Below are positions 1 through 29,860 of a stretch of DNA of 32,241 nt, one piece after another. The notes below the pieces were generated by a model that saw only the letters and a program-made list of their open reading frames with translations, was not told the origin of the DNA and made no database searches. This DNA comes from a bacterium (GTDB lineage Bacteria > Patescibacteriota > Patescibacteriia > UBA9934 > GWF2-40-263). Position numbers and translations under genes: made by a program. The stretch lies in assembly GCA_020057555.1 (NCBI GenBank), contig JAGVFR010000009.1, positions 1-32,241 on the forward strand, read 5' to 3'. Within the stretch, counting starts at the first letter, position 1. Each line of letters opens with the position of its first letter.

Positions 1-3000
1 ACTTATGGCGCGCCAGATGATTGCGATGTGTCAGGGCAAGCTCTTCAAAATTCAGGTTACAAGTGGAACGCGTGGACATCCAAAGACACGCCAGATAATT
101 ATAAAGTCGCTCAAGGTGGCACAACACAGGATGTGGCGTTCATGCTGAAAAACGGCGCGATTCAACTTGCCACAACGCTTCCGCAATGGTGCACATCACA
201 ATGTTTGAATGCTGGAGCCACAATCAAACACACCCAAGCGGTTTGTGGAGATGGAATTGTTGATTACAACGGTGATGGAAAAAATGAAGTTGAAGAATGC
301 GATGATAAAAATACAAACTCCGGAGATGGGTGTTCTTCAAGTTGTTTGAAAGAGGGTTCGACTTTGACTTGTGGAAATAATGTCGTGGATTCAGGAGAAC
401 AATGCGATGACGGAAATACTTCTGCAGGAGATGGATGTGATTCGACGTGTTTGAATAATGGATCGTCTTCAGTTGGCGCGACATGCGGAGATGGTATTGT
501 TGATTTTGCTCCACAGACCGGAGGCGAAGATTGTGATGATAAAAATATAAAAAATGGCGATGGTTGTTCAAGTCAATGTTTGTTTGAAGGCGCGGTCGCA
601 AAAGAGTTGGTCTATGCGACTTGTGGAAACACGAAAATCGAATCAGGAGAAGATTGCGATGATGGCAACGCTGTTTCTGGCGATGGATGCAGTGAAAAAT
701 GTTTGAAAGAAGGATCATCATTGCAATATGCTTCTCCGTCATTTTGTGGCGACAGCAAAGTTCAAACAGGAGAAGAGTGCGATGACGGAAACACTGTTTC
801 CGGAGACGGCTGTAATATAAAGTGTTTGAACGAAGGCGCGTCAGTTCAATATGGTGCTCCATCATATTGTGGAGATGGTCAAATTCAAACAGGCGAAGAA
901 TGTGATGTGACAGCCGGCCAAACACTTTCAATAGGTGGATACGCGGCCGCGCAGATTAGCGCCAACGCTCCAAAAGAAGTTGATAAAACAACTGGTTATG
1001 CAGTTTCGACTATCACCGCGCAGGCCGAAGGAGTAACAGGCGACGCGGAGTTAAAAGTTGATTGTTCCTGTGAATCAGATCAAGCGTGTGGAGATTATAA
1101 AACCCTAGGATGTGGCGCAGGGAGTTGTTGTTTCCTTCGTCCAAAAACAAAAACACCTTTTCAGCCGCCTGGCGGAACAGGTCCTGGAGGTTTGGGGTAT
1201 TGTAGAAACACTGCGGTTGCTGTGAAATTTGATCAGAAAATGGATCCGAAATCATTTGGTGAATTTGACAAAAATAAGAATGGAAAAATTGACTCCGGAG
1301 AATCCGCAAACATTCGACTGCAATTGTTCATGAAAGACGGAAAATTAATTGCAACAAATCCGTTGCTTTGTCCGTCGAATTATCAACTCGTTTCAAACGG
1401 ACAAGCGCAGTCAGGTTGGTTTGCACAGATTTGGAATATTGTTAAAACAGGATTTTGGACAGTTTTTGGAAAAGACGTATCAGCTGCAGGAACTTCATGT
1501 TACGCGCCAGTGAGTTTTCAGACGATTGATGTATCGGACGGTCAAAAGATTGTGCTTGAATATGGTGATCTTCTTGAACCAAATTCTGTTTATCAGGTTA
1601 AGATTTTTGGTGACAGTAATGTTACAGATAACAATCCAGCAGGAGTTTTAAGTGAAAATGGAGTTGGAGTGTGTTTGGGTGGAACGTGCGGTTTTGGAGT
1701 TTTGGCTCATCAGTTTTCAATTGGAAAAGAAGTTTGCTTGCTTGAAGCAGTTAAGGTTGAAGACAATGGAAAAGTCAACAAGCAACAATATGAAGACGCA
1801 AGTTTCGGATTCTTTTCAAAGAAAGATGAAACGCACGAGTTTGTCGCGCAAGCTTTGACATATCGTGATGGACTTAGTGTTTACGAACCGATCAGCAAAA
1901 CTTTGAATTACAGTTGGACTTGGGATTGGGGTTCATCGTACGCAACTGGTGCAGTTGAAAATATAGTTGATCTTGCAACAGGTGACACTGGAAAATTAGA
2001 AAAAGCAAAATTTTCGTCAGTTGGCAACAACGGACTTGAGTATGTGATTGCGACTGCAAAGATCAACAAAGATACATTTAATAATCCAACAACCACAGGA
2101 AAACAAACCGCAGGCCAGCTTGAAGTTACAGCTCTTGTTTGCGAAAACCCATGGCCGGCTTTAACTTCCGCGCTTGGTTTTCCATATATTGAAAAAACAG
2201 ATCCAACAAAACCATCAAATTTTGGTTTTTATTATTGTCGCGACCGCGGCGTAGAAGGAATAACAGATGATCTCCCGTCGCTTGCTGATCCAGTTGACGT
2301 AACTTCTGTTGCAACAGCCGGACTTTTACAGGAACTTTTCTTCAAAGTTCAAGGAACTCCTGACGCGATTGGAGTGCGAGTTTTCCAAAATCCAAATTAT
2401 CTTTCACCTAAAGCTTGGTTTGAGTCGCAAAAGTTTTTGGGCACTTACAAAGAAATTGACATTGACGGATATCAAGCGATTCAGTCCGGAAACACTGCGT
2501 ACGTTGCGGCCGCGAACAAAAATGGAAATATAATTTATCCAAACATTTACGTTGTTTCATATAATCCAAACGCCGGAGCTGACGCGAAAGAAATTTTCAC
2601 GCAGATTTTTGATCATTGGAAATTTAACGCGAACACAACAGACGTAAGCAATGTTGGTTTGTGTAAGACTGGAACCTCGTATGTTCAAAACGACAAAGGA
2701 GATTTTGTAAATTGTTCTTGGGATGGGGATTGTTTGGAAACGTTTGTTAATGGCGAGTGTACAATCACAAAGAACAAACCAGCAACAGCGGCTGAATGTC
2801 CGCTTGCGTCAACCAAAAACGCTTTTTGCGATAATGACAAATCAAAATTACAAAACGACATGCAACGATTGACGGACGTCACAACAACGATTTCTGCTTT
2901 GAATAAATACGGATTACAAAACAAACATTGTTCAGTTACAAAAAATCAAGGATGCTCATCAGATCCGCAGTGCCCGGGTGATGAAGTGTGCGTTGAGGGT

Positions 3001-6000
3001 TATCCAACAGTTCAACAAGGAACTTATGTTCCGGCAATGAGCGTAAGTAAATGGGAATCATGGAACGCGGTTCTCTCAAACGCGGTTGGTTCAACTTTAC
3101 CAAAAGATCCGATTGACGCTTTCTGGCAGGATTGCAAACAACAAGGTGAAGGTTTTGATCCTTTAACTTGCTTCAATGGTTTGGCAGGAAAGTTTGTTTG
3201 TCCAAAAGGATCTCATGTGTATGGTTATCAAAATAAAGGTGGGGAAAAGTATAAATTGTTTACTCAATTGGAATACGGAGTTTCGCCATGGAATTTTGCG
3301 ATAGATCAGTTTACAGATGATGATGTGACAGTTGTTGCCGAGTATTTGAGCGGACTAGCTGGAGTTCCAAAAGGATTTGTTTCAAATCCACTCTTCTGCG
3401 CTGACAACACAAGCTGGGGAATTTCAGCTGTATGCGGTGATGGAGTTGTTGGATCAAATGAAACATGTGAGCCAGGGCAAGTTAAGGCCGTATATCTTGC
3501 TGATGGATATGTGAATGTTTCTTGTAAAGATGATTGTTCAAATTATCAAACCGCGGCAGAAGCGATCGCGGCAGGATCACCAAAGATTGCCTTTAAATGC
3601 GGAAACGGTGTGCTTGAAGGAGATGAAAAATGCGATGATGGCGCGCAAAACGGAACTTACGGTCATTGCGCTGAAAGCTGTACGTTCACAAATGCGTTTT
3701 TGTGTGGAGATGGATATTTGGCTGGAGGCGAGCAATGTGATTGTGGATCGATTGATAATTTTGCGACTCTTCCAGCAACAAGTTGGGCAAAGCTAAATAG
3801 CTGTGAAGTGTCAAACGGGCAATACGGCAATACAACAACCAAAACTTGCACTTACGATTGTAAACAACCAGGACTTTCTTGCGGAGATAAAGAAGTGAAC
3901 GGGCCAGAAGAATGTGATGGAGGATTACAGGAGTGGGCTGGGAAACTTTGCCCAGACAACAAAACAACATGCACAACAGATAATGATTGTTCAAGTGGCG
4001 TTTGTGGAACGGGTAGCCAAGCTTGCGGAAGCAGTAAAGTCTGTGTTGATGCAAGCGATGTTGGAAAACAATGCGGTGCCAATAACCAATGTATAAGCGA
4101 TAAATGTAACAACTCGAAATGTCTTGGTGTAGATGATGTTGGAACACAATGTACCGTCGGTACACAGTGCGATAGCACCAAATGTTCAGATTTCACATAC
4201 GAACTAACTCGAACGCGAGTTTGTCAAAATGATTGTTCATGGCCTGGCTTTTCTTCCTGTCAGGGCGGAGATCAGTTTTGCGGAAACGGTAAAATAGAAG
4301 GAACTGAAGCGTGTGATGACGGAAATAAATCAAACAATGATAGTTGTACAAACGGATGTCAAAAAAATATCTGCGGTGATGAATATGTTTATAGCGGAGT
4401 TGAAGCGTGCGATAATGGAAACGAAAACGTGGGTCCAAACGATCTAAATCCGTGCGAAGCTTCATACAGCGACACGTGCAATTATTGTAATTGGCAATGT
4501 CAGTACAAGACTTTGTCAGGTTCGTATTGCGGCGATGGCGTAAAAAATGGAAATGAATTTTGTGATGGAAATGATCAACCTTATTGGTGTTTCGAAAAGG
4601 ATGCAAGTGGTGAAGTTTCACGCGGCGCGAGCTGTTCAAAAGCAGTCGCGCTTAAATTAGGCGCGGAAGGTACTTGCGCAAATGGATATACATGTCATTA
4701 CACAGGTGTTTGCAATGGTGGAGTGAATAATGGAAAGCCGTGCACACTTCAACCGACAAACAAAACAGCGGCAGAATATCTTGCCTCGGCAAACCAATTT
4801 TCTTGCGGAACAGATAGTCAATGTGTTGCGCCTGTTTGCGCGAGCGATTGTTCAAACACATGCCCTTTCACATTTAAGAAAGTTGGTATTTTTGCGCAAA
4901 GCGAGTTGTCGGGTTCTCAACCGCTTCCGAGCGTTGATTTGTACAGCTATTTCAACAAAGAAAAATTATCACCAGACAATGCTGTTTTGCACATTCCAGC
5001 TTGCTCTGTTGGAACAAAGATTACAGCGAACATTGACAACTCAAACGTCATCGAGCCAAACATTGATATTGTTTTTGTAACAGATTTAACTGGAACGATG
5101 GAAGACGGTCCAGATGGAAAAGCCGCCACTGCCCCAGAGCGTAGAATTGATATTGTGTCAGAAGCGGCAAAGCAAGCAATTGATGATTTGTATGACGCGT
5201 ATCAAGGCAACGACGGAGAAATCAGAATTGGTTTAGTGTCATATGGATACGGGCCAGCAGGAGAGCAGATTGATGAAAATACATACACGCATAATGTTCA
5301 AGATGATGTACTCAATGTGCTTGTTACAGATCCAACAAGCACAGAAAGTTTATTGCCATTGAATGAAGCTGGGAATAAAGCAAAATTGCAGAGCATTGTT
5401 GAAACATATAAAGACAATACCGGCGGTTGGACTTTAACTGGTTCAGCAATTCAAAAAGCAATAAAAATTCTAGATGAACAATCTCCATCTGAAAACCAGA
5501 AATTTGTGATTCTTCTTGCCGATGGACAAGCAAATCATGGTCTTGGAGAATATACTCCAGACAATAAACCAGCACACGACATATTATTGCATTGTTCTCA
5601 GATGACTTTTGAAAACGACACAAATAAAGATTATCTAAAAGAATATGGAAGTTTCGTTCCATATGAAGGAAAGGACGCTTGTATTGCCGAAGCTCGTTAT
5701 GAAGATGGAATGATTTTTGATCATATCAAATCTGGTGATATCACGTTTTATTCAGCAGTCATTTCAGATGAGGTTTCTGATAAAGCTTACATGGAACATT
5801 TGTCTAGTATGAAGTGTATAGGGTATGAAATGGCAGACATCAACGATTGTTCTGAAGGGAATTATGCATATGATGCTAACACTGGAAAAGGTATAGAAGC
5901 AATGTACAAGAAAATCATTGAATCTGTTTTGACATCAACAACGACAGTTACAGCGACAAAAGCAAATGATTCAAGTTCAGAAACAGCGATCACTCCTGTG

Positions 6001-6141
6001 GGACAGAATATCGAATTGCCTCTGCCTAAAACATTCGCGTGTCAAAACAAGCAAACTTTGATGCCGATCCAGACCATCTTCAACGGAACCGGAACAATGC
6101 ATTTCGATAACATTACATTTGAGTATTGTCCGACGCAGTAA
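1..6141 (+). CDS. Giant Cys-repeat, Ig-like and vWA surface protein (5' end outside window)
   Basis: The frame is open from base 1, so the gene starts upstream; the GTG at 28 is probably internal. The product exceeds 2,000 residues. About 13 DUF4215/Myxococcus-type Cys repeats (pattern CGDGxxxxxEECDDGN..GDGCSxxC) lie in two blocks, nt ~240-910 and ~3430-4600. Between them, nt ~1200-1740 resembles a Big_5/SbsA Ig-like domain (VKFDQKMDPKSF) with an EF-hand-like loop DKNKNGKIDSGE near nt 1267. A vWA domain occupies nt ~5055-5940, with MIDAS elements DLTGT, a downstream GWTLTGS and LLADGQ. No membrane segment follows it, so anchoring must be N-terminal or through partners. A cell-surface adhesion or binding role is inferred from the domains. 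The next three genes also carry calcium-loop motifs, which suggests one surface system. Confidence 0.9.
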   Translation, partial: TYGAPDDCDVSGQALQNSGYKWNAWTSKDTPDNYKVAQGGTTQDVAFMLKNGAIQLATTLPQWCTSQCLNAGATIKHTQAVCGDGIVDYNGDGKNEVEECDDKNTNSGDGCSSSCLKEGSTLTCGNNVVDSGEQCDDGNTSAGDGCDSTCLNNGSSSVGATCGDGIVDFAPQTGGEDCDDKNIKNGDGCSSQCLFEGAVAKELVYATCGNTKIESGEDCDDGNAVSGDGCSEKCLKEGSSLQYASPSFCGDSKVQTGEECDDGNTVSGDGCNIKCLNEGASVQYGAPSYCGDGQIQTGEECDVTAGQTLSIGGYAAAQISANAPKEVDKTTGYAVSTITAQAEGVTGDAELKVDCSCESDQACGDYKTLGCGAGSCCFLRPKTKTPFQPPGGTGPGGLGYCRNTAVAVKFDQKMDPKSFGEFDKNKNGKIDSGESANIRLQLFMKDGKLIATNPLLCPSNYQLVSNGQAQSGWFAQIWNIVKTGFWTVFGKDVSAAGTSCYAPVSFQTIDVSDGQKIVLEYGDLLEPNSVYQVKIFGDSNVTDNNPAGVLSENGVGVCLGGTCGFGVLAHQFSIGKEVCLLEAVKVEDNGKVNKQQYEDASFGFFSKKDETHEFVAQALTYRDGLSVYEPISKTLNYSWTWDWGSSYATGAVENIVDLATGDTGKLEKAKFSSVGNNGLEYVIATAKINKDTFNNPTTTGKQTAGQLEVTALVCENPWPALTSALGFPYIEKTDPTKPSNFGFYYCRDRGVEGITDDLPSLADPVDVTSVATAGLLQELFFKVQGTPDAIGVRVFQNPNYLSPKAWFESQKFLGTYKEIDIDGYQAIQSGNTAYVAAANKNGNIIYPNIYVVSYNPNAGADAKEIFTQIFDHWKFNANTTDVSNVGLCKTGTSYVQNDKGDFVNCSWDGDCLETFVNGECTITKNKPATAAECPLASTKNAFCDNDKSKLQNDMQRLTDVTTTISALNKYGLQNKHCSVTKNQGCSSDPQCPGDEVCVEGYPTVQQGTYVPAMSVSKWESWNAVLSNAVGSTLPKDPIDAFWQDCKQQGEGFDPLTCFNGLAGKFVCPKGSHVYGYQNKGGEKYKLFTQLEYGVSPWNFAIDQFTDDDVTVVAEYLSGLAGVPKGFVSNPLFCADNTSWGISAVCGDGVVGSNETCEPGQVKAVYLADGYVNVSCKDDCSNYQTAAEAIAAGSPKIAFKCGNGVLEGDEKCDDGAQNGTYGHCAESCTFTNAFLCGDGYLAGGEQCDCGSIDNFATLPATSWAKLNSCEVSNGQYGNTTTKTCTYDCKQPGLSCGDKEVNGPEECDGGLQEWAGKLCPDNKTTCTTDNDCSSGVCGTGSQACGSSKVCVDASDVGKQCGANNQCISDKCNNSKCLGVDDVGTQCTVGTQCDSTKCSDFTYELTRTRVCQNDCSWPGFSSCQGGDQFCGNGKIEGTEACDDGNKSNNDSCTNGCQKNICGDEYVYSGVEACDNGNENVGPNDLNPCEASYSDTCNYCNWQCQYKTLSGSYCGDGVKNGNEFCDGNDQPYWCFEKDASGEVSRGASCSKAVALKLGAEGTCANGYTCHYTGVCNGGVNNGKPCTLQPTNKTAAEYLASANQFSCGTDSQCVAPVCASDCSNTCPFTFKKVGIFAQSELSGSQPLPSVDLYSYFNKEKLSPDNAVLHIPACSVGTKITANIDNSNVIEPNIDIVFVTDLTGTMEDGPDGKAATAPERRIDIVSEAAKQAIDDLYDAYQGNDGEIRIGLVSYGYGPAGEQIDENTYTHNVQDDVLNVLVTDPTSTESLLPLNEAGNKAKLQSIVETYKDNTGGWTLTGSAIQKAIKILDEQSPSENQKFVILLADGQANHGLGEYTPDNKPAHDILLHCSQMTFENDTNKDYLKEYGSFVPYEGKDACIAEARYEDGMIFDHIKSGDITFYSAVISDEVSDKAYMEHLSSMKCIGYEMADINDCSEGNYAYDANTGKGIEAMYKKIIESVLTSTTTVTATKANDSSSETAITPVGQNIELPLPKTFACQNKQTLMPIQTIFNGTGTMHFDNITFEYCPTQ

Positions 6142-9451: not shown

Positions 9452-10714
9452 ATGACCGAAGAAATATACACAGGGCTTGATGTTGGCTCTCATGCTGTCC
9501 GAGTGGCAGTTGGGAAACTTGTTCCAACTTCAGATGGAAAAGAGCAGATGCACATCATCGGCGCTGTTGAGGTTCCATCAAGCGGAGTAAACAAAGGAAC
9601 AATAACAAATCTTGAAGACGCGATTTCCTCAATTTCTCGAGCTCTTGAGCAGGCCGAAAGGATAACTGGAGTTCCTGTAAATTCAGCTTGGGTTGGGATA
9701 AGTGGTGGACATATCATTTCACAAGAATCAAGAGGTGTGATTGGAGTTGGAAGAAGTGATGGCGAGATTCGAGAGGAAGATGTTGAGCGCGCTATCGAAG
9801 CCGCTCGAACAGTCGCGACGCCGACAAACTACGAGATCATTCATGTTATTCCAAAAAGTTTTATTGTTGATGGTCAGCGAGGAGTGAAAGATCCGGTTGG
9901 TATGAATGGCATTCGGCTCGAAGTTGATGCACTTATCATTCAAGGACTTGGTTCACAAATCAAAAATTTAACAAAAGCAGTATATCGAACAGGGATGAAC
10001 ATCGAAGATTTGGTGTTTTCGATTCTTGCGACAGCAGAAGCTGTTGTTTCAGACAGACAAAAGGAATTGGGCGTTTGTGTTGTAAATATAGGAGCTTCGA
10101 CAACTTCATTGGTCGTTTACGAAGAAGGTGATGTACTTCACACCTCTGTTTTACCTATCGGGTCTGATCATATAACTTCGGATATAGCTCTTGGCTTGAG
10201 AACCTCAATTGATGTTGCCGAACAAGTGAAACTTCGTTATGCAACGTGCATACCGGAAGAAATAAATAAAAAAGACGAAATCAATTTAGCTGAACTTGGA
10301 GCGCCTGAAGATGAAATCGTGGGTCGACGATTTATTGCAGATATTACACAAGCTCGCGCGCAGGAAATTTTTGAATACGTTGATAAAGAGTTAAAGAAAG
10401 TTGAAAGATCAGGAATGTTGCCAGCAGGTTTGGTTCTAACAGGAGCTGGAGCTAAATTACCAGGAATGCTAGATGCGGCAAAAGAAACTTTGCGTCTCCC
10501 AGTGTCTCTTGGAAATGCAATCGGTATTACATCAGTGATTGATCGTGCCAATGATCCTGGTTTAAGCACAGCAATAGGTCTTGTTCTCTGGGGATATCAT
10601 ATTCGAGGAACAAGCGGTAAAGGGAATTTTGGAAAGATATTCAAATCATTTGGTGGAAACATGGGAAAAATATCTGGTGGATTGAAAAAATTGTTTAAGT
10701 CGATGAAACCGTGA
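9452..10714 (+). CDS. ftsA: Cell division protein FtsA
   Basis: 420 residues, full length. The actin-like ATPase frame is clear: phosphate-1 region TGLDVGSHAVRVAVG at residues ~5-20, the SHS2/1C domain with the SGGHIISQESRGVIGV block, phosphate-2 region VVNIGASTTSLVVYEEG, and adenosine motif LVLTGAGAKLPGM. The C-terminus is a Gly/Lys/Phe-rich segment ending KKLFKSMKP, the expected amphipathic membrane-targeting helix. FtsA tethers FtsZ filaments to the membrane and recruits the divisome. No ftsQ or mur gene is adjacent. A strong terminator separates it from ftsZ, so unlike in many bacteria the pair is probably not one transcript. Confidence 0.97.
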   Translation: MTEEIYTGLDVGSHAVRVAVGKLVPTSDGKEQMHIIGAVEVPSSGVNKGTITNLEDAISSISRALEQAERITGVPVNSAWVGISGGHIISQESRGVIGVGRSDGEIREEDVERAIEAARTVATPTNYEIIHVIPKSFIVDGQRGVKDPVGMNGIRLEVDALIIQGLGSQIKNLTKAVYRTGMNIEDLVFSILATAEAVVSDRQKELGVCVVNIGASTTSLVVYEEGDVLHTSVLPIGSDHITSDIALGLRTSIDVAEQVKLRYATCIPEEINKKDEINLAELGAPEDEIVGRRFIADITQARAQEIFEYVDKELKKVERSGMLPAGLVLTGAGAKLPGMLDAAKETLRLPVSLGNAIGITSVIDRANDPGLSTAIGLVLWGYHIRGTSGKGNFGKIFKSFGGNMGKISGGLKKLFKSMKP

Positions 10715-10864: not shown

Positions 10865-10945
10865 ATCATTTTGAATCGAACCATGTCTCCGGGCCATCGG
10901 ACTGTCGCCGCTGTTCCCTACGACACGGTTCGATCTCAAAATGAT
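10865..10945 (-). ncRNA. Structured RNA-like element, copy B (unrecognised)
   Basis: A long imperfect hairpin sits in the ftsZ leader. Read on the minus strand, the outer stem pairs ATCATTTTGA with TCAAAATGAT, ATCGAACC with GGTTCGAT, and TGTC with GACA. The core contains AGGGAACAGCGGCGA and TGGCCCGGAGACATGG, both shared with copy A at 29789-29860. The minus orientation is preferred because one stem mismatch (A.C on the plus strand) becomes a G.U wobble, and because the unpaired core is purine-rich in that reading. The outer stem sequence differs from copy A but stays paired. On the plus strand it is a hairpin between the ftsZ promoter and start codon. Identity unknown. Confidence 0.5.
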
Positions 10946-10978: not shown

Positions 10979-12235
10979 ATGGCTCAAGTTAAACCAGACA
11001 TAGAAACCTTTGCAAAAATTAAGGTAATTGGAATTGGAGGAGGAGGTGGGGCGGCAATCAATCGCATGATCTGTGACAACATTAAGGGTGTTGAGTTTAT
11101 TGCCATCAATACTGACGTTCAAGATTTGAATCAAAATCTTGCGCCAAAAAAGATTGCTATTGGCAAAACCATAACTCGCGGACTCGGAGCTGGAATGAAT
11201 CCTGATATTGGTTCTCGAGCCGCAGAAGAAAATCAAAATGAGATTCGTGAGGCTCTAAGTGGATCTGACATGGTGTTTATCACATGCGGACTCGGCGGAG
11301 GAACTGGTTCTGGTGGAAGTCCTGAAGTCGCGAAACTTGCAAAAGACATGGGCGCTCTTACGGTTGCTGTTGTTACAAAACCTTTTACATTCGAAGGCGC
11401 ACAGCGAAGACGTATAGCGGAAGAAGCATTTGATCGTTTGCTTCAGCATGTGGACGCTATAATCACAATTCCAAATGACAGAGTTTTGCAGATTATTGAT
11501 AAAAAAACTTCACTCATGGAAGCGTTCACGGTTGTTGACGATGTTTTGCGTCAAGGTGTAAAGGGAATAGCTGAACTAATTACAATTCCAGGTCTTATCA
11601 ATGTTGATTATGCTGACGTTAAAGCTATCATGGAATTGTCAGGCTCTGCTTTGATGGGAATTGGGCGCGCGTCTGGTGAGAACCGAGCGATCGAAGCGGC
11701 TAAGCAGGCCATCGCGAGTCCTTTGCTTGAACTCTCGATTGATGGAGCAAAAGGAATTTTGTTTACGATTTCTGGTGGAAGTGATCTTGGTATGCATGAG
11801 GTTGCTGAAGCCGCAAAAGTTATCACAGGTTCAGCAGACGAAGACGCGAAAATTATTTTTGGCGCAAACATCAACGATGATCTTGAAGATGAAATTCGAA
11901 TCACTGTTGTTGCAACTGGTTTTGATTCTCGAGAGCGACGCGCAACATCGCCAGGAGCTGTTGAAGTGCAAGCACAAGGAATGTGGTCGCCGAATTCTTT
12001 CTTGCGTGTTCGTGAGCGCGATGAACAGCCAGCTATGCATCACCAAGTTCAAAAAACTCCGCCACCTCGTTTTTCTCATAAACCAATTGAATCACATCCA
12101 GAATCTGTTGCAGTAAAACAACCTGAACCGAAAATTGAGCATAGACCAGTTAACAAAAACTCTGTGTCAGTAAAGGCGCAGACAGAGGAAGAGGAAATTG
12201 AAATCCCGGCGTTTATCAGAAAGAAAATGATGTGA
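10979..12235 (+). CDS. ftsZ: Cell division GTPase FtsZ
   Basis: 418 residues from the ATG at 10979 ([20 protein letters not shown]). The frame is open further upstream, but that part overlaps the hairpin element and does not look like FtsZ. Visible are the N-terminal glycine loop [13 protein letters not shown], the tubulin signature [13 protein letters not shown], the T7 loop region [11 protein letters not shown] and a C-terminal peptide [13 protein letters not shown], which matches the tail that binds FtsA. A variable linker of ~90 residues rich in Pro/Gln/Glu precedes that tail. FtsZ forms the division ring. No Shine-Dalgarno is visible. A terminator follows. Confidence 0.95.
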
Positions 12236-16594: not shown

Positions 16595-16629
16595 GAAAAG
16601 ACGACCAACAAAAGTCAGTCGTCTTTTCT
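16595..16629 (-). terminator. Terminator of tRNA-Asp
   Basis: A perfect 12-bp stem AGAAAAGACGAC / GTCGTCTTTTCT starts at the final A of CCA. Its U-rich 3' arm (TTTTCTT) is suitable for termination. The loop resembles that of the hairpin at 17303-17350 (shared CGACTGACTTTTGT). Confidence 0.8.
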
Positions 16630-16706
16630 GGCGGACCGGACGGGATTCGAACCCGCGATCTTCTCCGTGACAGGGAGACGTGTTAACCGGGCTACACCAC
16701 CGATCC
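16629..16706 (-). tRNA. tRNA-Asp (GTC anticodon)
   Basis: The minus strand folds as a full cloverleaf. The acceptor is GGATCGG / CCGGTCC (one G.U), the anticodon stem-loop TCTCC-CTGTCAC-GGAGA has anticodon GTC, and the T arm GCGGG-TTCGAAT-CCCGT is intact. CCA is encoded. A promoter lies 24 nt upstream and a terminator starts on the CCA, making a single-gene transcription unit. Confidence 0.97.
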
Positions 16707-24201: not shown

Positions 24202-24240
24202 AACTAAAATAACTGACCTTGTGGTCAGTTATTTTAGTTG
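24201..24240 (-). terminator. tmRNA terminator
   Basis: A perfect 18-bp stem (24201-24218 with 24223-24240) with loop ACAA on the minus strand. The 3' arm is rich in T (GGTCAGTTATTTTAGTTG). It starts on the tmRNA CCA end, as in the tRNA-Asp unit. Confidence 0.85.
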
Positions 24241-24629
24241 GTGGAGCTGCGGGGAATTGAACCCCGGTCTGGTAAGGCTTCACATTATGATTTTTCCAAG
24301 CTCATTTCCACTTGTTTGCAAGCGCGCGCTTGAAGTAGAAACAAATGCGCGTGCAGGTGTTGATCGCAATTCTCGAAAGTGCGAGACCAACGACCGCACT
24401 TTCCAGCTCACATTTATGACGCCGCGATTCGATTATTGAGCATCACCGAGGCGGACGGTTCTCGGGTATTAAGCGAGAACAGGGGCGAATGTTGGAACGC
24501 TGAAAGCGTTCTTAATTTTCGCAATGACGTTGTTTGCATTTATCGTCTTGTGCGGATTGATTTACGAGAAGCCGCACCTGCTCGGCTTGATCACAATGTA
24601 AGGGACTTCCATCGATACCGATCAGCCCC
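24239..24629 (-). ncRNA. ssrA: Transfer-messenger RNA (tmRNA)
   Basis: 391 nt on the minus strand. The tRNA-like ends are clear: 5' GGGGCTG pairs with 3' CAGCTCC, discriminator A and encoded CCA, and the T arm GGGG-TTCAATT-CCCC is intact. The 5' part reads GGGGCTGATCGGTATCGATG. A resume codon GCA and a tag frame lie at 24537-24469. tmRNA with SmpB (21065-21508) rescues stalled ribosomes and tags the nascent protein for proteolysis. It has a strong promoter (24696-24724), a ~60-nt precursor leader and a terminator. Confidence 0.95.
24469..24537 (-). other. tmRNA tag reading frame
   Basis: From GCA (24537-24535) the frame runs 22 codons to TAA (24471-24469). The tag begins ANNVIAKIK and ends TFAPVLA. 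The AN start and hydrophobic -LA end fit known tags, but it is about twice the usual ~10 residues and lacks the common ALAA end. The resume point is inferred by analogy with ANDENYALAA-type tags. Confidence 0.75.
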
Positions 24630-29042: not shown

Positions 29043-29774
29043 ATGTCCAGAATCGAAAAAGGCTCTGATGTAAAAGAAGAATTGCAACAGATGAAAGGGG
29101 AAGTGATAAAAGAAATTAGTTCAAAAAAACAACGCCATTCGTTTCGAAGTTGTTTTGTTATTTTTTTTATTTTGATTATTTGTATATTAGTTGTTGCCGC
29201 ATGGGCTGTCGCATCAACCGGTGTTATTAACGTTCCAGTGTTTAGTAAGTTTGCTTATAACAAACCAGAACCGGAGCGCATTGTTACTCCAGGAGTTCCA
29301 CTTGAAAAAGTTATTGAAGAGCAGGTCATATCAAAATTAGCAACAGGTTCTGTAAACAAACCAATCTCGCTCTCGCTTAGTGAATCATCTCTCACAGCAT
29401 CTTTGCGTTCTGTTCTTGAATCAAGCGCTGATGGATTTATTGATGCGTCATTTTCTCAAGCAACAATATCTCAAGATCGCGGTTTAACTTTTTTCTTACC
29501 GCTTGAAAAATCAAAGTCAGGTTCCGCGCTTTCTATTTCAGTCAAAGCAAATATAAAAGATGGAAAATTAGAGCTTGTTCCAGAAGAATTTAAAATCGGT
29601 TCTTTACATGTACCAGATTCGTTTATAGCTCTATTTATTCAATCGTTTTTGAAGGACCAACTCGCTGATGCAAATAAAATTCTCGGATCGTATGTGGAAG
29701 TTCAGGAGATTGAATATAATGATGGATCTGTTATTGTAAGCGGGAAAATATCAGCAGAAGTTAAAGAAGAATAA
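29043..29774 (+). CDS. Membrane-anchored protein, possibly DUF2140/YpmS-like
   Basis: 243 residues. A cytoplasmic N-terminus with coiled-coil character (VKEELQQMKGEVIKEISSKKQ) precedes one membrane segment (residues ~36-60, SCFVIFFILIICILVVAAWAVA). The outside domain of ~175 residues alternates strands and short helices (SLSLSESSLTASLRSVLE ... SALSISVKANIKDGKLELVPEEFKIGSLHVP ... DGSVIVSGKI). That pattern resembles YpmS/DUF2140-type proteins, but no diagnostic residue is visible, so the family call is tentative. Function unknown. A structured element follows 14 nt after the stop. Confidence 0.75.
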   Translation: MSRIEKGSDVKEELQQMKGEVIKEISSKKQRHSFRSCFVIFFILIICILVVAAWAVASTGVINVPVFSKFAYNKPEPERIVTPGVPLEKVIEEQVISKLATGSVNKPISLSLSESSLTASLRSVLESSADGFIDASFSQATISQDRGLTFFLPLEKSKSGSALSISVKANIKDGKLELVPEEFKIGSLHVPDSFIALFIQSFLKDQLADANKILGSYVEVQEIEYNDGSVIVSGKISAEVKEE

Positions 29775-29788
29775 GTGTTGGCCTTAAA

Positions 29789-29860
29789 GAGCGGTTTGTA
29801 CCATGTCGGAGGGAACAGCGGCGAGGAGTCCGCTGGCCCGGAGACATGGTACAACCGCTC
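29789..29860 (+). ncRNA. Structured RNA-like element, copy A (unrecognised)
   Basis: A 72-nt hairpin. The outer stem GAGCGGTTTGTACCATGTC pairs with GACATGGTACAACCGCTC (18 bp, one bulged T). The core can form a GGA/GGA purine internal loop, a GGG/CCC pair, an AAC/GG loop and a 5-bp AGCGG/CCGCT stem closed by loop CGAGGAGT. The core AGGGAACAGCGGCGA and TGGCCCGGAGACATGG is shared with copy B (10865-10945). No T-run follows, so it is not a terminator. It fills the gap between two co-directional genes and ends 3 nt before a possible start codon, where it could affect translation. Confidence 0.55.

Follow-up and report, generated by a model that had tools for sequence, protein, structure and literature searches.

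Two copies of a structured element had been proposed in the 32,241-nucleotide stretch of Patescibacteria DNA analysed here (the window), and both were found, copy A at positions 29789-29860 of the + strand and copy B at 10865-10945 of the - strand. Copy B lies in the gap between ftsA and ftsZ, antisense to ftsZ, with ftsA ending about 150 nt before it. Copy A follows an unnamed open reading frame for which no Pfam family was matched. The window also carries a tmRNA (24239-24629, -), a tRNA-Asp (16629-16706, -) and an ORF of 2037 aa (28-6141, +). The element and its neighbours are laid out as follows.

29789..29807, + strand: 5' arm of copy A, GAGCGGTTTGTACCATGTC, with a single unpaired T (from fold and comparison)
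29808..29842, + strand: conserved centre of copy A (from fold, alignment of copies and loop counts)
29843..29860, + strand: 3' arm of copy A, GACATGGTACAACCGCTC
10922..10945, - strand: 5' arm of copy B, ATCATTTTGAGATCGAACCGTGTC as read on the - strand
10888..10921, - strand: conserved centre of copy B
10865..10887, - strand: 3' arm of copy B, GACATGGTTCGATTCAAAATGAT as read on the - strand
10979..12235, + strand: ftsZ (Pfam Tubulin and FtsZ_C)
9452..10714, + strand: ftsA (Pfam FtsA), upstream of copy B
29043..29774, + strand: unnamed ORF before copy A, its stop 14 nt from copy A

The predicted folds reach -49.9 kcal/mol for copy A (z -7.9 against dinucleotide shuffles) and -43.6 kcal/mol for copy B (z -7.6). 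Both core blocks named in the original prediction are identical between the copies, which have a 49-nt core in common, enclosed by long arms that vary in sequence yet remain paired. The centre of copy A consists of a GGA/GGA 3x3 internal loop, GGG/CCC, an AA/G internal loop and a CAGCGG/CCGCTG stem closed by the 8-nt loop CGAGGAGT. Copy B has GTA/GGA in the first loop, the same GGG/CCC and AA/G, an inner stem with a G.A mismatch and a 7-nt loop, CGACAGT. Neither copy matched an Rfam family at the gathering score when the window was scanned with 4227 covariance models, in agreement with the initial failure to recognize the element among several named RNA classes, and for copy A no meaningful match appeared even at a permissive threshold.

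The description of a two-copy element was correct for A and B themselves and far too low as a count, since their own 849-kb genome (G000) holds approximately 27 copies. A search with the shared 16-mer, allowing up to two mismatches, returned 26 core matches there versus none for a reversed control pattern, and a covariance model returned 27 convincing matches. Altogether, about 105 distinct copies were gathered from eight genomes: besides G000, the window's genus contributes G002 (27 copies) and G001 (16), a second genus G015 (23) and G027 (12), and two further genera the single-copy genomes G006, G060 and G019. The other 65 of the order's 73 genomes gave no match to the covariance model, and a second model run on 381 genomes of the class, with strict filters and few candidates scored, returned nothing beyond the family. 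Among 84,980 species genomes, the core pattern occurred only in Candidatus Uhrbacteria and in a single related Parcubacteria MAG. A phage origin was considered and rejected, as no IMG/VR viral contig matched the core pattern. Our literature search found no paper linking Uhrbacteria with palindromes, and the best-supported conclusion is that the copies form a previously unlisted, lineage-restricted family of small palindromic repeats belonging to a few Uhrbacteria genera.

The anatomy of the element, derived from 24 copies of the own genome and then from the 105 copies of all eight, is that of an outer palindrome around a conserved centre. Some 70-90 bp long, it holds an asymmetric centre of about 35 nt between near-perfect inverted arms with a median length of 21 bp, the sequence of which is almost free except for the innermost ATGTC/GACAT. 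The consensus centre opens with GNA/GGA as a 3x3 internal loop, followed by GGG/CCC and the AA/G internal loop; beyond these come a stem of 6 bp (CARCGG/CCGYTG) and a loop of 7 or 8 nt, CGA(N)NAGT. The length of this loop follows the third pair of the stem, an 8-nt loop accompanying a Watson-Crick pair in 50 of 50 copies and a 7-nt loop a non-Watson-Crick one in 28 of 31. Longer branched variants, with extra hairpins in the internal or terminal loops, occur at L090:12970-13200, L100:15295-15470, L104:8870-9005 and L194:1090-1260; an Rfam scan of the stretches with the L090, L100 and L194 variants found nothing. Some copies are nested inside another, larger palindromic repeat. This larger repeat, CTCTGTTCGCNGACAT...GGCGGTCAAGAACAGAG, was seen at L024:2840-3010 and in L110, L103 and L085.

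That the stems covary, as had been proposed from two copies, holds for the family at large. In the 24 own copies, both partners have changed in 19 of 27 pairs; in 69 copies from seven genomes, this rises to 24 of 27, with 95% of the cells paired. The 69 copies contain 435 double-change cells, where shuffles give 114 and slid controls 70-115; their covariation score of 0.63 compares with 0.17 for shuffles and no more than 0.12 for slid controls. Mismatches within the stems are biased by strand: G.T outnumbers A.C on the core strand by 86 to 28 (70:27 when one inherited pair is left out), and 43 copies have more G.T than A.C versus 13 with the converse, an excess whose significance is inflated by shared ancestry. 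It comes mostly from the genus g1 and is absent in G015 (9:10).

Orthologous sites were compared in alignments that covered 20-kb stretches for G000 and G002 and shorter ones for G001. Several sites filled in one species are empty in another, and others carry unrelated palindromic repeats there; L081:7661, L091:1555 and L105:16310 are among these empty or otherwise filled sites. The site of copy A is empty in G015, occupied by a different repeat in G001, and carries a truncated arm and another repeat in G002. At the ftsA-ftsZ site of copy B, G015 likewise has nothing, and G001 and G002 carry a long hairpin of quite another kind. The centre is inverted in place at 7 of the roughly 19 occupied sites that were compared, these figures being a rounded reading of a pairwise table that excludes G006 and G060 and in which some comparisons share a site. 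G000 and G002 differ by five inversions with three or four sites the same, depending on the direction of comparison, G000 and G001 by two with four the same, and G001 and G002 by one with four or five the same. When all three genomes are compared, one inversion (L100:8963) falls on the branch leading to G000 and another (L087:9932) on that leading to G002. The orthologous arms show 56 double Watson-Crick changes versus 33 single ones, counted over site pairs that are not fully independent. No clean target-site duplication was seen at the few empty sites, where boundaries have drifted, and a constant element boundary was looked for and not found. A further idea, that target hairpins (GAGCGGTT...AACCGCTC without the core) pre-existed at the sites, was rejected, since none occurred in four genomes.

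The only insertions found within a gene are in tgt, which encodes tRNA-guanine transglycosylase (PF01702). The element lies in frame in the tgt of seven of the eight genomes, that is, in all three single-copy genomes and in four of the five copy-rich ones. In the fifth, G002 (97% complete), no tgt was located in the assembly, owing to either gene loss or a gap. The tgt match in G001 contains one in-frame TGA. Six of the insertions are antisense; the one in G006 is sense (LSEGTTATVRRPGD), and the TGT tree pairs this gene with its antisense sister in G060 (support 89/71). Five of the seven element-bearing genes could be placed in the tree, where they form two separate groups, and the simplest reading of the tree is two or more separate entries into the same TGT loop. 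The palindromic arm extends, in G000 and G060, into the conserved LFG codons (CTGTTTGG), and the opposite arm thus looks as if host sequence had been copied in inverted form. At this site, other relatives show a short loop or different repeat-like inserts. In this family, the loop that TGT carries between RWAxRC and LFGIVQGG is an insert hot spot (L114-L143, L059), the inserts varying from genome to genome, for example STLPLSKGELEGVAAQQ and HTNSQLPTPNSQN.

Dispersal, patchiness, empty sites, nesting, random orientation, in-place inversion and the in-frame tgt insertion together argue for a dispersed family of small DNA palindromes that are mobile or formerly mobile and behave like the Rickettsia palindromic elements (RPE), a reading to which we assign a probability of roughly 0.75. 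The mobile palindrome was one of three readings offered at the outset, and it is upheld by the dispersed, patchy and randomly oriented copies; the other two, a new RNA class and a ribozyme, are disfavored. Copies settle between genes and in a single coding site that tolerates them, a variable loop of TGT. Polymerase template switching between the arms probably rewrites both arms together, yielding stems that appear compensated, and flips the centre. The element may be spread by a trans-acting activity that recognizes the hairpin or by recombination among copies. Since neither a clean target-site duplication nor a constant boundary was found, strict transposition is putative only, and no mobilizing enzyme for the element was found.

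Template switching homogenizes the arms of inverted repeats and inverts the spacer between them, in coding genes as well (PMC8604942), and it can make compensatory hairpin changes in a single step, without selection on RNA (PMC8794818). The surplus of double over single pair changes and the flipped centre fit this process. Consequently, the argument that compensated change is the hallmark of selection on RNA structure does not carry over to long DNA palindromes, where template switching yields compensated arms. As a residual alternative, one copy may have been replaced outright by another, which could give the appearance of double changes and of some inversions. However, template switching alone predicts neither a conserved, strand-asymmetric centre nor an excess of G.T, and the centre retains non-complementary, strand-specific loops which this process should erase. 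This suggests a one-strand role for the hairpin, as DNA or as RNA, perhaps in relation to whatever spreads it. A more specific version, in which the centre is the recognition hairpin, as single-stranded DNA or one-strand RNA, of an undescribed Patescibacteria transposition or retro-copying system and the arms are regrown from the host site, is unlikely.

The position of the copies relative to genes, with ORFs called by a simple longest-ORF rule, bears on whether they are instead intrinsic terminators or 3'-end stabilizing hairpins swapped between genes. Many copies lie within about 10-20 nt of a stop codon, 20 are in convergent gaps versus 5 in divergent ones, and long symmetric arms would function in both orientations, all of which favors such a role. 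The lack of a T-run noted for copy A is nevertheless true of most copies, and the T-runs that speak for termination occur in just 6 of the 88 copies whose arms reach 11 bp or more. Copy B, moreover, is just upstream of ftsZ and some 150 nt beyond the end of ftsA, and the conserved 35-nt centre is not needed for terminating or stabilizing a transcript. We therefore regard a terminator role as unlikely.

A new structured RNA class, whether cis-regulatory element, sRNA or ribozyme, would attribute the covariation to a selected fold. This has in its favor the strength of the stem covariation, the conserved purine-rich internal loops GNA/GGA and AA/G, the tie between loop length and the neighbouring pair, and the excess of G.T over A.C on one strand. 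On the other hand, orientation relative to flanking co-directional genes is random (34 copies in the same direction versus 35 opposite), a poor fit for a cis-acting RNA, and closely related species can have opposite orientations of the centre at one and the same site. The empty orthologous sites, the tgt copy within a protein-coding frame, and the uneven copy number, with 12-27 copies in each of five genomes and one or none elsewhere, also count against an RNA, making this explanation decidedly unlikely. A riboswitch or leader role at ftsZ in particular was rejected, because relatives lack a copy there or have another repeat in its place.

Mobilization of a REP-like hairpin as a single strand by a Y1 transposase of the RAYT or IS200 type would suit a strand-asymmetric, intergenic, multicopy hairpin and the two Y1_Tnp genes of the own genome, but it is very improbable, and was rejected, as Y1 transposases do not track the copies: Y1_Tnp was undetected in G001, G015 and G027 (16, 23 and 12 copies) and is common among copy-free relatives, the own Y1_Tnp gene in L024 is flanked on both sides by a different palindrome, CCCACGGCTTTAGCCGTGGG, and the hairpin has variable flanks with no constant GTAG-type foot. 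The Y1-transposase ORF between CCCACGGCTTTAGCCGTGGG-type palindromes (L024:1390-1930) is itself a likely REP/RAYT pair, separate from the element.

The favored palindromic repeat can be set beside several known systems. Like the palindromic elements of Rickettsia and Wolbachia, it is short, dispersed, and found both in intergenic regions and in frame in a conserved protein gene; it is also similarly lineage-restricted and has no known mobilizer, a likeness drawn at the level of features (taken for RPE from PMC2229807). It differs in bacterial phylum, in length (about 70-90 bp versus 105-146 bp for RPE), in conserving the centre alone while the arms are rewritten and the centre inverted in place, and in having been found in only one gene, tgt, where the Rickettsia elements have entered many.

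REP and BIME sequences are intergenic, multicopy imperfect palindromes with a strand-asymmetric structure, as is the Uhrbacteria element. Unlike REP/RAYT systems, the latter has longer, variable arms and no conserved tetranucleotide foot, and a Y1 transposase went undetected in three of the five genomes rich in copies. With quasipalindromes shaped by template switching, it shares arm homogenization and spacer inversion (PMC8604942) as well as compensatory changes (PMC8794818); however, quasipalindromes are private local repeats, whereas here a spacer of about 35 nt is both conserved and dispersed. MITEs such as Correia/NEMIS, ERIC and RUP are likewise small, non-coding and dispersed with terminal inverted repeats, but in the Uhrbacteria element neither constant terminal repeats nor a target-site duplication was seen. 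The conserved centre, freely rewritten arms and in-place inversion are the distinguishing marks of the family.

The family is a clear natural case in which a textbook RNA covariation signal was probably generated at the DNA level, and it calls for caution in covariation-based RNA discovery in multicopy repeats. It also adds the reduced genomes of the candidate phyla radiation to those known to carry RPE-like palindromic repeats. Because the TGT loop was apparently entered at least twice and holds the element in both orientations, it lends itself as a compact model for work on mobile palindromes and inversion in place.

The long hairpin found in the ftsZ 5' leader of G001 (L232:2765-2919) and G002 (L233:2753-2905) is an observation of its own. 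The G002 copy had no match in Rfam, and the two share a conserved core, GTTGAACGGGGAA...GGGCCCCGTGA.ACGAAAG.
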